From a virus: a stretch of DNA of 45,011 nucleotides. The notes under the pieces are model-generated. The model was not told the origin of the DNA. It saw nothing but the letters and a program-made list of their open reading frames with translations, and did not search any database. This document shows positions 10,375-14,619 of this stretch, piece after piece; position 1 is the first letter of the stretch; every line of letters begins with the position of its first letter. The translations under genes were made by a program, and so were the position numbers. The stretch covers positions 1 through 45,011 of the IMG/VR virus record IMGVR_UViG_3300025921_000034; one strand, given 5' to 3'.

Positions 10375-11118
10375 ATGACGGACGACGAGTACAAGCGGAT
10401 CGGCGGGCCGGTGTCGCTCGGCGACGCGATCGCTGTCGCGGGACCCGAGCTGCCACTGCTCGGCTATTCGCCCGAGTGGTGGGAGGAGCGCGATCGCGTT
10501 ATCGCCGAAGAGCGCGCGATCGACGCCGTCCAGGAGGAGCAGCGCCGCATGAACGAGCGCGCGAACCTGCTGCGCGACGAGGAGTTCCCCGAGCTCGCGC
10601 TCGTAGCAGCGCTCGCGCCGCTCGAGGAAACCACGGCGGTCCAGATCGCGCGCCGCTTCGTGCAGGCGCGAGCACACGGCCTCCGAACCCGCGTGCTCGT
10701 GTTCGGCGGCGGCGTCGGCGTCGGTAAGACGACCGCCGCGGCGTGGATCTGCGTCAAGGCGCAGGACCCCCGCCCGGGCTTCATCCGCGTCAGCGCGCTC
10801 GAGCGGCGCGGCCGCTACGACAAGGGCCTGGACGCCTGGCTCCGTACGCGCACGTCGCTGGTGATCGACGACGTCGGCGCCGAGGTGCTGGACGGCAAGG
10901 GCGTGTTCCGCTCGCTGCTCGACGAGATTGTCGACACGTTCTACGCGAACAAGCGCACGTTGATCATGACGACAAACCTGCGCCCGAAGCAGGCGACGCC
11001 GAACGACCAACCGCAGTTCAAAGAGCGCTACGGCGAGCGCGTGTGGTCTCGCTGCAGCGAGCTCGGCGAGTGGGGCGACTGCGGCATGCGCGACCTGCGC
11101 AAGGAGCAACGCGCGTGA
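10375..11118 (+). CDS. DnaC-like helicase loader ATPase, 247 aa
   Basis: The ATG at 10375 lies three bases after the initiator stop. Walker A is at about residues 111-120 (GGGVGVGKTTAAAW), Walker B is LVIDDVGAEV near residue 164, and a sensor-1-like LIMTTNLRPKQ follows. Near the end, RYGERVWSRCSELGEW fits the arginine-finger region of DnaC/IstB AAA+ proteins. The first 80 residues are charged and may bind the replicative helicase. It probably loads host DnaB onto origin DNA together with the O-like protein encoded just before it. Confidence 0.85.
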   Translation: MTDDEYKRIGGPVSLGDAIAVAGPELPLLGYSPEWWEERDRVIAEERAIDAVQEEQRRMNERANLLRDEEFPELALVAALAPLEETTAVQIARRFVQARAHGLRTRVLVFGGGVGVGKTTAAAWICVKAQDPRPGFIRVSALERRGRYDKGLDAWLRTRTSLVIDDVGAEVLDGKGVFRSLLDEIVDTFYANKRTLIMTTNLRPKQATPNDQPQFKERYGERVWSRCSELGEWGDCGMRDLRKEQRA

Positions 11119-11534
11119 GCGACCTCGTCGACCTCATCGAGCAGGGCGTCATCGAGCGTCCGACCGATAGGGTGCGCTCGAAGAAGCCGCAGTGCTCGAA
11201 CTGCGTGAAGAACGGCGAGCAGGGCCTCAGCCACACGGCACGCAACTGCCCGCTGCTCGGCCGCGCGCCTGCAAAGCCGCGGCACGAGCGACCGAACATC
11301 ACGAAGGCCGAGCGCGCGATCCTCGAGCACGCGCTCGCCGCGACAGCGCCAGGCGGAACAGGATCGGTCGTCCCGCGTCGCGGCCAGGAGCTGCCCTACA
11401 CCCGGCTCTGGCGCCGTGGCCTGCTCGCGCACCTCGGCGAAGGTGTCGACGTCACGCTCGCGAACGAGACGCTCCCCGGAGGAGACCTATACAAGATCAC
11501 GGACGCCGGCCGCGTCGCGCTCGAGGCGAAGTGA
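11115..11534 (+). CDS. Zinc-knuckle protein, 139 aa
   Basis: The GTG at 11115 overlaps the stop of the helicase loader (GTGA); the longer frame upstream is its shadow. Residues 27-45 read QCSNCVKNGEQGLSHTARNC, a C-x2-C-x9-H-x4-C knuckle. After a Pro/Arg linker there is a helical stretch (TKAERAILEHALAATAPGG). A winged-helix-like end follows: YTRLWRRGLLAHLGEGVDVT, then LYKITDAGRVALEAK. It is likely a small nucleic-acid-binding protein of the replication cluster. No family name is assigned. Confidence 0.65.
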   Translation: MSDLVDLIEQGVIERPTDRVRSKKPQCSNCVKNGEQGLSHTARNCPLLGRAPAKPRHERPNITKAERAILEHALAATAPGGTGSVVPRRGQELPYTRLWRRGLLAHLGEGVDVTLANETLPGGDLYKITDAGRVALEAK

Positions 11535-11968
11535 AGCGCGGCAAGCCACTCAAGCGTGGAGCTCCGCTGCGTCGAAAGACGTGGATGAAGTCGCGCGGCG
11601 ACACGAAGTACCGCCGCCGCGATCGCGACTTCGACTTCATGGGCTGGGTTCGTCGTCAACCTTGCGTGTGTCGAACGCTGCCGCCGCCGGACTTCATTCG
11701 TGACCTCGCACTGCGGCTCGCAGCGCCGGAGATCGCGCGGTCGACCACGTGCTCCGGCCACATGGAAGCGGATCACGCAGGCGTGCGTGGGCTCGGTCAG
11801 AAGGCCAGCGACACCACGTGCATCCCCCTTTGTTCAGCGCACCACAAACAGCGCACAGACCACAACGGCGCGTTTCGCAACCTCACCCGCGATGAAGCCC
11901 GCGCATGGCGCGCGGCCGCGATCGACCACACGCAAGCCGCCTGGGCGGCATGGAGCAGGAACCAGTGA
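11531..11968 (+). CDS. DUF968/Ref-like HNH protein, 145 aa
   Basis: The GTG at 11531 overlaps the upstream stop and gives MKRGKPLKRGAPLRRKTWMK, a strongly basic leader. The core reads CSGHMEADHAGVRGLGQKAS, then DTTCIPLCSAHHKQRTDHNG. That is the HNH-like pattern of phage DUF968 and P1 Ref proteins, with EADH and the IPLC-x2-HH signature. Such proteins cut or process DNA during recombination, Ref with help from RecA. Cofactor-binding His and Cys residues are present. It sits in the replication-recombination cluster before the methyltransferase gene and overlaps it by four bases. Confidence 0.7.
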   Translation: MKRGKPLKRGAPLRRKTWMKSRGDTKYRRRDRDFDFMGWVRRQPCVCRTLPPPDFIRDLALRLAAPEIARSTTCSGHMEADHAGVRGLGQKASDTTCIPLCSAHHKQRTDHNGAFRNLTRDEARAWRAAAIDHTQAAWAAWSRNQ

Positions 11969-14334
11969 GCAAGACCAAGACGGCGGGCGCCCAGACTGGC
12001 GCCGCGTGCACCTCAAAGAACAACGGCGACACCTGCAAGCTCCGCGGCGAGCACGTCGTCCACTCGACGACCGCCGACGTGAAGAAGGTCGCGCAGCACC
12101 GCACGTGGCAGCTCGCCGAGGACGGCCGCGTTCACGTGATCACGTTCAACCGCGGCAAGAAGATGGCCGACTGGTTCGAGGACGCACCGCCCACCGATGG
12201 CCGGATCCAAGACGGCACTGCGCCCGTCATGAACGCCGAGCCCGAACGGTGCGACGCGAAGCGGTTCGGCTGCACCCGCTGCGTGCTGCAGTTCGGCCAC
12301 GCCGGCGATCATTTTACCGTCGGAGAGGATTCCGGCCGCGCGAGCTCGTGGGCCGGGCAGAGCGACGAGATGAACAGCTGGCAGCCGTGCAACGCGGTCA
12401 ACGACGGAATTATCTGCCGTCGCCCGGAAGAGCACGACGGTCATCACCGTGGCGTGGGTCGCGCGTCGGGGACGCTGCACGAATGGGATGACGATCTCAT
12501 TATCGTCGCCTCGTTCGCCGGCGGCGATGTCGTCGCCAGGCTGCTCGGTGACGACGAACAGCGCCCGCGCGAGCTCGACGCCGGCGCGAAGGCCGACCTC
12601 GCGAAGGTGTTTGGGGACGATGGCAAGCCGGCCAAGGCAAGGTCGCGCAAGAAGCACGTCGAGCCGGAGGTCACCGTCGAGGTCGGCCATGCATCGCTGA
12701 CGGTCAAAGTCGACGACGGCCCATCGATCGTCGTCTGGGAGGTCGGTCAACGTGTGCAGCTCGCCAAGCGTCGCCGCGGGCCTGTCGAGATCGGGAAGGT
12801 GCGCGACCTCGCCGACACCAGTCGCGGCCGGCGCGCTCTTGTTGCGTGGCCGAGCGGCGGCGAGCAGTTCGTCGACCTGGTCGAGTTGGAAGTAGCTCCG
12901 GCAGAACAGACCGCCTCGCAGGATGAAGCGGTCGCGGCGCCCGCGCCGGTGAAGTTCACCGACCTGTGCCTGAAGTGCGGACTCGCTAAGCACGCCGGGA
13001 AGTGCGCGAAGGCCGAGCAGCCCGCGGCCACGTCGGCGTACACGGCGCCAGAGCACAGGCTGGAGAAGATCGGCAGCTACGAGGTTCACCCGGCGGCGGC
13101 GCTGTTTCCGATGATCGGCGGTGCCGATCGCGAGGCGTTCATCGCAGACCTGAAGAACGGATTGCGCCGCAAGATCGTGCGGCTCAACGGCGCGATCTTG
13201 GACGGCCGCAACCGGCTTAGTGGGTGCCTCGAGCTCGGCATCGAGCCGCAGTTCCGCGAGTTCGGCTCCGAGCCCGGCGACGGCGACGATCCGATCGCGT
13301 TCGTGATCAGCGAGAACATCGCGCGGCGCCACCTCAACGAGACTCAGCGCTCGTTCGTTGGCGCCGAGCTCGTGCCGATGTACGAAGCTGCCGCGAAGGA
13401 GCGCCAGAAGCGAAAATCCGACCCTGCTAGCGCAAATGTGCGCGAACAAAACGGCAAGGCGACCGAGGCGGCGGCCCGCGCGGTGAACGTCTCCGCGCGG
13501 TCCATCGAGAACGCGCTCAAGGTGAAGCGCGACGCCGCACCCGAGGTGCTCGCCGCCGCGAAGGATCGCGGCGAGCTCAAGGTCAGCGCGGCCGCCGACC
13601 TCGCGACGCTGCCGAAGAGCAAGCAGACGGAGATCATCAAGAAGGTCGGCGGCGGCGAGATCCGAGCCGGCAAGGTCCGCTCGCTCGTTCGCCAGGAGAA
13701 CAAGCGCGACGTCGTTCGCAAGATCAATACCGGCGCCGTGCTGCCGCCGCCGCTCGGGCCGTACGGCGTCATCTATGCCGACTACCCGTGGCTCTACGAG
13801 AACAGCGACCAGCACGAGGGCTCTCGCGGTCACATCGACTACCCGCCGATGGCGCTCGACCAGGCGCAGCTCGAGGTCGCCCGACACAAGGGCCTACAGG
13901 TCAGCGACCTCACGATCATCGACCACGCCCACATGATGCAGTCGCGCGCGTCCGAGGACTGCATCCTCGCGCTGTGGACGACGAACTGGCACATCGTGAT
14001 GCAAATGCGCCAGGTCCTCGCGGCGTACGGCGCGACGCACCGCACGGTGATCACGTGGCCCAAGCCGAAGGCCGGCGTCGGCACGTGGCCGCGCGGGCAG
14101 ACCGAGCACCTCGTGATCGCTAGCTACGGCGAGCCGACTCACACGCTGAACGAGCTCACCACGCTGCTCGAGTCGTACGCGCAACGCGAGCACAGCAGGA
14201 AGCCGGACGAGGTGGCGGACCTGCTGCGCAAGCACTGCGCTGGGCCGTTCCTCGAGCTCTTCGGTCGCGAGCAGCGCGAGGGCTGGACCGTGTGGGGCGC
14301 CGAGTCGAAGAAGTTCGACCAGGAGGCCGCGTAG
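11965..14334 (+). CDS. Multi-domain zinc-module/ParB/MT-A70 DNA adenine methyltransferase, 789 aa
   Basis: The GTG at 11965 overlaps the upstream stop. Residues 1-180 hold three similar Cys-His-Trp modules, each C, C, then H-x2-3-H and a later Trp (near residues 15-47, 96-125 and 143-178). Residues 335-347 form a CLKCGLAKHAGKC knuckle. Residues 368-435 look like a ParB/Srx domain (KIGSYEVHPAAAL, AILDGRNRLSGCLELGIEP), followed by ENIARRHLNETQRS and an HTH. From residue 600 comes an MT-A70 methyltransferase: YGVIYADYPWLYEN, with DYPW replacing the usual DPPW, then HIDYPPMALDQ and GTWPRGQTEHLVIASYG. It probably makes N6-methyladenine in phage DNA. The ParB-methylase pairing is known in phages; the zinc-module N-terminus is unusual. 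Confidence 0.75.
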   Translation: MSKTKTAGAQTGAACTSKNNGDTCKLRGEHVVHSTTADVKKVAQHRTWQLAEDGRVHVITFNRGKKMADWFEDAPPTDGRIQDGTAPVMNAEPERCDAKRFGCTRCVLQFGHAGDHFTVGEDSGRASSWAGQSDEMNSWQPCNAVNDGIICRRPEEHDGHHRGVGRASGTLHEWDDDLIIVASFAGGDVVARLLGDDEQRPRELDAGAKADLAKVFGDDGKPAKARSRKKHVEPEVTVEVGHASLTVKVDDGPSIVVWEVGQRVQLAKRRRGPVEIGKVRDLADTSRGRRALVAWPSGGEQFVDLVELEVAPAEQTASQDEAVAAPAPVKFTDLCLKCGLAKHAGKCAKAEQPAATSAYTAPEHRLEKIGSYEVHPAAALFPMIGGADREAFIADLKNGLRRKIVRLNGAILDGRNRLSGCLELGIEPQFREFGSEPGDGDDPIAFVISENIARRHLNETQRSFVGAELVPMYEAAAKERQKRKSDPASANVREQNGKATEAAARAVNVSARSIENALKVKRDAAPEVLAAAKDRGELKVSAAADLATLPKSKQTEIIKKVGGGEIRAGKVRSLVRQENKRDVVRKINTGAVLPPPLGPYGVIYADYPWLYENSDQHEGSRGHIDYPPMALDQAQLEVARHKGLQVSDLTIIDHAHMMQSRASEDCILALWTTNWHIVMQMRQVLAAYGATHRTVITWPKPKAGVGTWPRGQTEHLVIASYGEPTHTLNELTTLLESYAQREHSRKPDEVADLLRKHCAGPFLELFGREQREGWTVWGAESKKFDQEAA

Positions 14335-14619
14335 GTGGCGGTCACGGCGCACGCTGTCTGCGGCGGCTGCCTGCTCGACCTCGCGAACTGCGCGTGCGCG
14401 CCGGTTGAGGAGATCGAAGGCTGGCGCGTTGTCTGCGATCACCCCGGCTGCAGGGCGTTCGTGCGCGCGCTCGACTGCGGCGATGACGACCGCACCGCGT
14501 TCGAGGCGTCGCTCGCTCTGGCCATCGCGTACGGCTGGCGCATCGCACCTGACCGCTTTATTCGCTCGCGCCGGGACCTGTGCCCGGATCACGTGGATGC
14601 CGTGGAGGACCGATGGTAA
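14335..14619 (+). CDS. Cys-rich small protein, 94 aa
   Basis: The GTG at 14335 directly follows the methyltransferase stop. The N-terminus AVCGGCLLDLANCAC has CxxC and CxC pairs, the middle has WRVVCDHPGC, and the end has RRDLCPDHVDAVEDRW. In between is a helix (EASLALAIAYGWRI). The DLCP-x-H ending is common in small phage proteins of unknown role and suggests a zinc-stabilised fold. It overlaps the next gene by seven bases. Confidence 0.6.
   Translation: MAVTAHAVCGGCLLDLANCACAPVEEIEGWRVVCDHPGCRAFVRALDCGDDDRTAFEASLALAIAYGWRIAPDRFIRSRRDLCPDHVDAVEDRW

Follow-up and report, generated by a model that had tools for sequence, protein, structure and literature searches.

Genomic context and domain organization

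The window, that is the whole stretch of DNA analyzed, is a 45,011-base IMG/VR virus record with a G+C content of 68%. By gene content it is a contractile-tailed phage, with genes for terminase, portal, head protease, tail sheath, tape measure and baseplate; megablast of its bases 1-25000 against the phage collection gave zero matches. The gene considered here and its features are the following.

11965..14334, + strand: ParB-MT-A70 gene, 789 amino acids, GTG start, stop codon included
12007..12108, + strand: Cys-His-Trp module 1, residues 15-48 (C15-C24-H30-H33-W48), by the fitted pattern
12250..12351, + strand: Cys-His-Trp module 2, residues 96-129 (C96(-C103)-C106-H112-H116-W129), by pattern and independent HMM
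12388..12486, + strand: Cys-His-Trp module 3, residues 142-174 (C142-C151-H157-H161-W174), by pattern, independent HMM and model
12967..13005, + strand: CX2CX4HX3C motif, residues 335-347 (C335-C338-H343-C347), from sequence
13072..13374, + strand: ParB-like NTPase fold, about residues 370-470, by PHROGs and family-profile matches
13405..13728, + strand: ParB-type helical/HTH part, about residues 481-588, by the Spo0J 1vz0 profile match and model helices
13762..14304, + strand: MT-A70 domain, residues 600-780, by Pfam, model, fold and profile
13780..13791, + strand: motif IV DYPW, D606-Y607-P608-W609, from sequence
13885..13935, + strand: 17-residue insertion relative to the closest relative, L365, residues 641-657, by alignment and model
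14188..14205, + strand: EHSRKP, residues 742-747, conserved MT-A70 stretch, by alignment

The frame is open from the GTG at 11965 to the stop codon ending at 14334. An alternative in-frame ATG 5' of this codon would give a protein of 809 residues; the GTG is favored as start because it shares a 4-base overlap with the TGA (11966-11968) of the preceding ORF. The domain order proposed by an earlier, sequence-only reading, all within one 789-residue product, was recovered from ORF, Pfam, PHROGs and sequence analyses.

The 5' flank of the gene has an ORF weakly matching replication initiation, a DnaC-like helicase loader and then an HNH-type ORF. By eye, the same HNH-type ORF adjoins the 5' side of the ParB-MT-A70 genes of both the window (11192-11968) and the viral locus L132 (L132:3127-3735), which suggests that this gene order is conserved between the two. 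The upstream ORF at 10743-11534 carries a knuckle-like CxxC...H...C stretch (CSNCVKNGEQGLSHTARNC), and a small Cys-rich ORF at 14335-14619, for which there was no Pfam match, lies directly 3' of the ParB-MT-A70 gene.

N-terminal Cys-His-Trp modules

Three modules of the N-terminal region fit C-x8/9-C-x5-H-x2/3-H-x12/14-W; the first, which is without H-x-G-x-H, is the most divergent copy. When residues 1-330 were shuffled 100,000 times, the pattern occurred once in 5 shuffles and twice in none; it had been fitted to the same three copies. An independent HMM, built on 42 non-redundant copies from other phages with the window excluded, gave 12.6 bits for copy 2 and 14.2 for copy 3, compared with a best score of 7.9 in 2,000 shuffles; copy 1, which it did not report, is supported by the pattern derived from all three.

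A stricter pattern with GHxGxH, scanned as DNA in IMG/VR, gave 73 stretches; at 67 loci the motif lay in an open frame. A control pattern in which Cys and His were swapped and the spacings left unchanged gave 11 stretches, 5 of them in an open frame. A bias also appears outside the positions fixed by the pattern: of 49 unique copies, 39 have R or L two residues beyond the second Cys. Several modules can occur in one protein; L357, for example, has four HMM domains. On these sequence grounds the three repeats noticed earlier are a real recurring phage module, found by pattern also at the N-terminus of L365. Each copy would probably bind one zinc.

No named family for the module was found in the libraries searched. 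Five module-bearing stretches had no Pfam match above cut-off and weak PHROGs matches, nearly all of function unknown; among ten longer module-bearing proteins, one was of Prim-Pol/AAA type, one HAD (RNA-repair type), two weakly primase-like and six had no match. At L297:1260-4151 the module lies between Prim-Pol and AAA domains in a 964-residue open frame. L324 and L341, the two with weak resemblance to primase domains, are probably chance pattern matches and were set aside. A model of module 3 (residues 133-180) reached pLDDT 78 and pTM 0.51; no PDB structure was matched at E 0.001 by Foldseek, and profile matches were at E 0.8 or worse. A 33-position profile had no match in three cellular genomes, a result uninformative as to distribution, and tblastn of the window N-terminus against the phage collection returned a single unrelated match. 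A literature search, weak since such motifs are variously written, found no description of the module.

Downstream of the modules, the CX2CX4HX3C motif called a zinc knuckle by the sequence-only reading is present as described. The classical CCHC zinc knuckle is CX2CX4HX4C; the window motif is one residue short of this spacing, and the alignment to L365 contains no counterpart. The fusion ORF of L145 has a Cys-rich segment of another type (CSRCGQTKPLDDF...CKAC) ahead of its ParB part; judging from it, other ParB-MT-A70 fusions may carry other zinc-like modules.

ParB-like part

The ParB-like domain was confirmed by several profile comparisons, while single-sequence Pfam did not detect ParB in the window protein. 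Residues 411-580 match the ParB-like phrog_4715 (E 7.5e-11), and phrog_21315 is matched across the ParB and MT parts (residues 362-783, E 3.7e-41). Viral and cellular fusions were aligned in 51 rows, and the profile of this alignment matched Spo0J, Noc and ParB, besides METTL3 and MTA1; E values with the ParB family were 1.7e-6 for 1vz0 (Spo0J), 2.1e-6 for 7ng0, 4.1e-4 for 7bnr and 9.3e-4 for 6t1f. The 1vz0 match spans profile positions 14-189, i.e. the NTPase fold and the helical part that follows. We take LDGRNR (412-417) to be box II-like and SENIARRHLNE (449-459) box III-like. The 51-row alignment shows no variation at the DG-NR residues, and the HSxKP and DG-NR signature is present in 81 of 81 counted loci. 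In the fold comparison the 50 rows listed contain no ParB structure, being filled by the MT domain.

Excerpts of PMC12704722 describe NTP binding by some of the ParB folds that are fused to methyltransferases. A different activity for this part, that of a nicking nuclease in a nick-and-mark enzyme that acts in early replication or attacks host DNA, has a precedent in Bacillus cereus Bce_0392, a ParB domain joined to an adenine methylase that nicks DNA nonspecifically (PMC5512222, in part). The window protein, however, matches Spo0J and Noc with their NTPase fold and HTH; nuclease activity is not a property that sequence can reveal, and we regard this explanation as very improbable.

MT-A70 domain

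The MT-A70 assignment was well founded: the PF05063 score of 60.2 bits exceeds the cut-off of 23.9. Residues 353-789 were modeled with a mean pLDDT of 84.0 and a pTM of 0.78; the MT half of the model resembles METTL3 (9rry_A: Z 16.6, rmsd 2.9, 159 aligned) and MTA1, a DNA enzyme (9u9e_A: Z 16.3, rmsd 3.0, 165 aligned). The motif-IV Asp and HS-KP are invariant across the 51-row alignment, and the window retains Asp606, Trp609, HSRKP and ELFGR. Five of 29 conserved MT columns are changed in the window, the third most of 51 rows; the other 50 rows have 0 to 6 changed, two of them more than five. The insertion at residues 641-657, partly modeled at low confidence, adjoins the active-site loop.

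METTL3 being among the closest folds, the protein might be an adenine methyltransferase of rRNA, tRNA or mRNA tuning host translation or lysogeny, with zinc modules that bind RNA. A prophage MT-A70 acts on 16S rRNA and needs a partner protein, as described in the available part of PMC10810198. The ParB and HTH parts point instead to DNA, and the best profile match is the DNA enzyme MTA1; an RNA substrate appears rather unlikely.

Variability of motif IV

It is common practice to judge an MT-A70 enzyme active or dead by its DPPW signature. The canonical m6A signature is given as (N/D)PP(Y/F/W) in passages of PMC3814359, and the DYPW at 606-609, correctly read before in place of DPPW, has only one of its two prolines. 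Motif IV was tallied in viral fusions. A first scan used ParB motifs and was blind to motif IV; among the best 80 of its 320 confirmed viral loci, 79 contain HSxKP, with DPPW in 47, DPEW in 23, DFEW in 3, DPAT in 2, and DPAW, DNPW, DCEW and DCPW once each. A second scan with the nearest relatives of the window yielded 42 loci, of which 28 (L365-L392) were new; ParB and HSxKP were both present in 11 of these new loci (DPPW 5, DPEW 3, DFEW 1, DIDW 1, DIPR 1). In the resulting 90 loci, 79 from the best 80 of 320 and 11 from the second scan, DPPW is found in 52 and another motif in 38 (26 DPEW); in all 90 the motif begins with Asp, in 87 it ends with Trp, and DYPW occurs in none. The viral set includes near-copies, six pairs being identical; L208, without HSxKP, was left out of the tally. 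L204 has DPPW. L188 and L197 (DPAT) and L392 (DIPR) are ParB-MT-A70 proteins lacking the motif-IV aromatic too.

Outside the tally, DYPW is present in L001, a solo viral MT-A70, DFEW in a Bradyrhizobium phage fusion, DAPW in L383 and DFPW in L266 from Xanthobacter. The pattern YADYPWxY was found in four IMG/VR stretches, one in an MT-A70 (L010, on the contig of L001) and three not, compared with at least 120 matches for its DPPW counterpart. DYPW was considered as the mark of a subfamily and rejected, as L001 is far from the window in the tree and only one of the four stretches is MT-A70. On this sequence survey DYPW is rare, and motif IV is loose in the ParB-MT-A70 family, so that the change is not exceptional.

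Excerpts of PMC3814359 indicate that in DNA m6A enzymes the contact of the first proline is made by its main-chain carbonyl, so that another residue can serve there, and that the KsgA/Erm class has Leu, Ile or Val at that place and dimethylates. ErmE has AIPY, PikR1 has NVPF and is reported to monomethylate (PMC6787224, in part), and human DIMT1 is active with NLPY (PMC8463865, in part). These cases make a non-proline second residue compatible with activity, and a changed product possible, not implied.

Phylogenetic position and closest relative

In the MT-domain tree the sister of the window is L365 (100/93), followed by L132 (100/99), with motifs DPPW and DNPW, respectively. The change to DYPW is thus most simply private to the window branch; a single earlier loss of proline with a return to proline in L365 would be the less simple alternative. 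Across the 100 rows, position 2 is other than proline in 13, needing nine changes, at least seven of them forced by well-supported branches; position 3 is non-proline in 33 rows, with five changes, at least three forced. The trees omit one member of each of the six identical pairs, L208, L369, L392 and loci without HSxKP, and include 11 hand-picked loci of the 78 genome_contigs loci L214-L291. In alignments A4 and A5, about 50 of the 80 viral loci were hand-picked for diversity; L156 and L183, with a stop in the match, were dropped.

L365 (IMG/VR contig 3300043610_000036) is, like the window, a ParB-MT-A70 fusion and the closest relative found, with 44% identity over window residues 368-784 and 59% over the MT tree columns. 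The two share the same YENSDQHEGSRGHI stretch after motif IV, whereas L365 lacks the 17-residue insertion. Its N-terminus is shorter than that of the window, its 555-residue open frame reaching the contig edge, and contains one copy of the module by a loose pattern (C-x9-C-x4-GHxGxH-x12-W), scored at 7.5 bits by the module HMM, and a second, Trp-less one by eye. The N-terminal regions align with 33% identity over 43 columns (E 0.023, in a two-sequence comparison). Modules joined to ParB-MT-A70 may therefore be, on modest evidence, an architecture common to both proteins. Because L365 has modules and yet DPPW, modules and DYPW are unlinked. By eye, a similar accessory region lies at different ends of other ParB-MT-A70 proteins: C-terminal in L161 and L375, N-terminal in L213.

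The special functional meaning earlier suggested for DYPW is not established, given the DPPW of L365 with an almost identical stretch after the motif, the 38 departures from DPPW among the 90 loci (best 80 of 320 plus second scan), and the active KsgA/Erm/DIMT1 enzymes with non-proline second residues in the partial sources above. Loss of the first proline could still change the product, e.g. to N6,N6-dimethyladenine as in KsgA/Erm with (A/S/N)(L/I/V)P(Y/F); its replacement has been tied to re-binding of monomethylated adenine (PMC3814359, in part), and position 2 has changed repeatedly in the tree. PikR1, with NVPF, is nevertheless reported to monomethylate, Tyr is bulkier than Leu, Ile or Val, and the sister protein is DPPW, all of which make a changed product extremely unlikely here.

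An impaired MT-A70 or a pseudoenzyme, with DYPW and the insertion as signs of relaxed constraint, deserves more weight, although we consider it unlikely. The protein would then be a ParB/zinc DNA-binding scaffold, or would act together with a partner from host or phage, in the manner of METTL14 and METTL3. The window branch is longer than that of L365 (0.75 and 0.33), the five changed columns and the insertion agree with relaxation, and relatives with DPAT (two) and DIPR (one) have lost more of motif IV. Against this, Asp606, Trp609, HSRKP and ELFGR are retained, the frame is intact, and PF05063 detects no second MT-A70 in the record, which may be incomplete.

Proposed function

The best explanation as a whole, to which we give about even chances, is a phage N6-adenine methyltransferase of the ParB-MT-A70 fusion kind that is placed on DNA. 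Architecture, homology and the retained Asp and Trp are read directly from the protein; activity, nucleotide and zinc binding, DNA as substrate and biological role are what we infer. The ParB-like part would bind a nucleotide and, with the HTH part, load on DNA under NTP control, holding the C-terminal MT-A70 domain there for adenine methylation in cis. The N6 protons would be accepted by Asp606 and by the main-chain carbonyl of residue 607, and Trp609 would pack on the base, as other m6A enzymes do it; the N-terminal modules would probably contribute further contacts, to DNA or to a partner. Marking of phage DNA, during replication or against restriction, would be the likely role.

This explanation is supported by the PF05063 score above cut-off, phrog_21315, the METTL3 and MTA1 folds, the Spo0J/Noc/ParB profile matches, the invariant signature residues, the replication and HNH neighbors and the L365 architecture. 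The accessible part of PMC7556043 reports a phage MT-A70 that is specific for GATC in DNA. Against it stand the five changed MT columns, the insertion near the active site, the rRNA-directed phage MT-A70 of PMC10810198 (in part), the lack of evident repeated parS-like palindromes in the window, and GATC, which is not depleted there (397 observed, 412.6 expected), a weakly informative count.

A broader reading, in which an unnamed portable zinc module is a phage targeting unit on DNA enzymes and an MT-A70 group repeatedly rebuilds motif IV (DYPW, DNPW, DFEW, DPEW, DIDW), altering product or substrate, e.g. to N6,N6-dimethyladenine, seems distinctly improbable in its joint form. The family-wide looseness of motif IV and the unnamed module, tied together by the window gene and L365, are nonetheless more interesting than DYPW itself. 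A DPPW rule would fail the 38 of 90 loci (best 80 of 320 plus second scan), all of which keep the Asp, and these loci thus offer a natural series for asking about the role of the two prolines. A name for the module, which is found in many phage proteins and has none in the libraries searched, would help in annotating small zinc-like phage proteins.

Comparison with known systems

METTL3 and Tetrahymena MTA1 have an MT-A70 fold like that of the window protein, and no ParB part was seen in the matches. Motif IV is DPPW in METTL3 and also, by alignment, in MTA1, unlike the DYPW of the window. The KsgA/Erm/DIMT1 dimethyltransferases resemble it in having an active enzyme with a non-proline second residue in motif IV, as far as the partial sources go; they differ in belonging to another family, with a small hydrophobic residue rather than Tyr and with Tyr/Phe rather than Trp.

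Other counterparts are the fusions of the ParB-CTPase fold to methyltransferases. In the available portion of PMC12704722, MT-A70 is named for archaea, and the phage examples are N6_N4 and Methyltransf_23, unlike the architecture found here. The phage ParB-MT-A70 fusions (phrog_21315; L132-L211; Bradyrhizobium phage ppBeUSDA76-1 WAX24331.1) have, as does the window protein, the ParB fold, an HTH-like part and MT-A70 in one chain; WAX24331.1 has DFEW in place of DYPW, and in the fusions examined, L365 excepted, no Cys-His-Trp modules were found. As judged from sequence, the parts are of known kinds, the core is a known phage ParB-MT-A70 fusion, and its combination with the modules is unusual.
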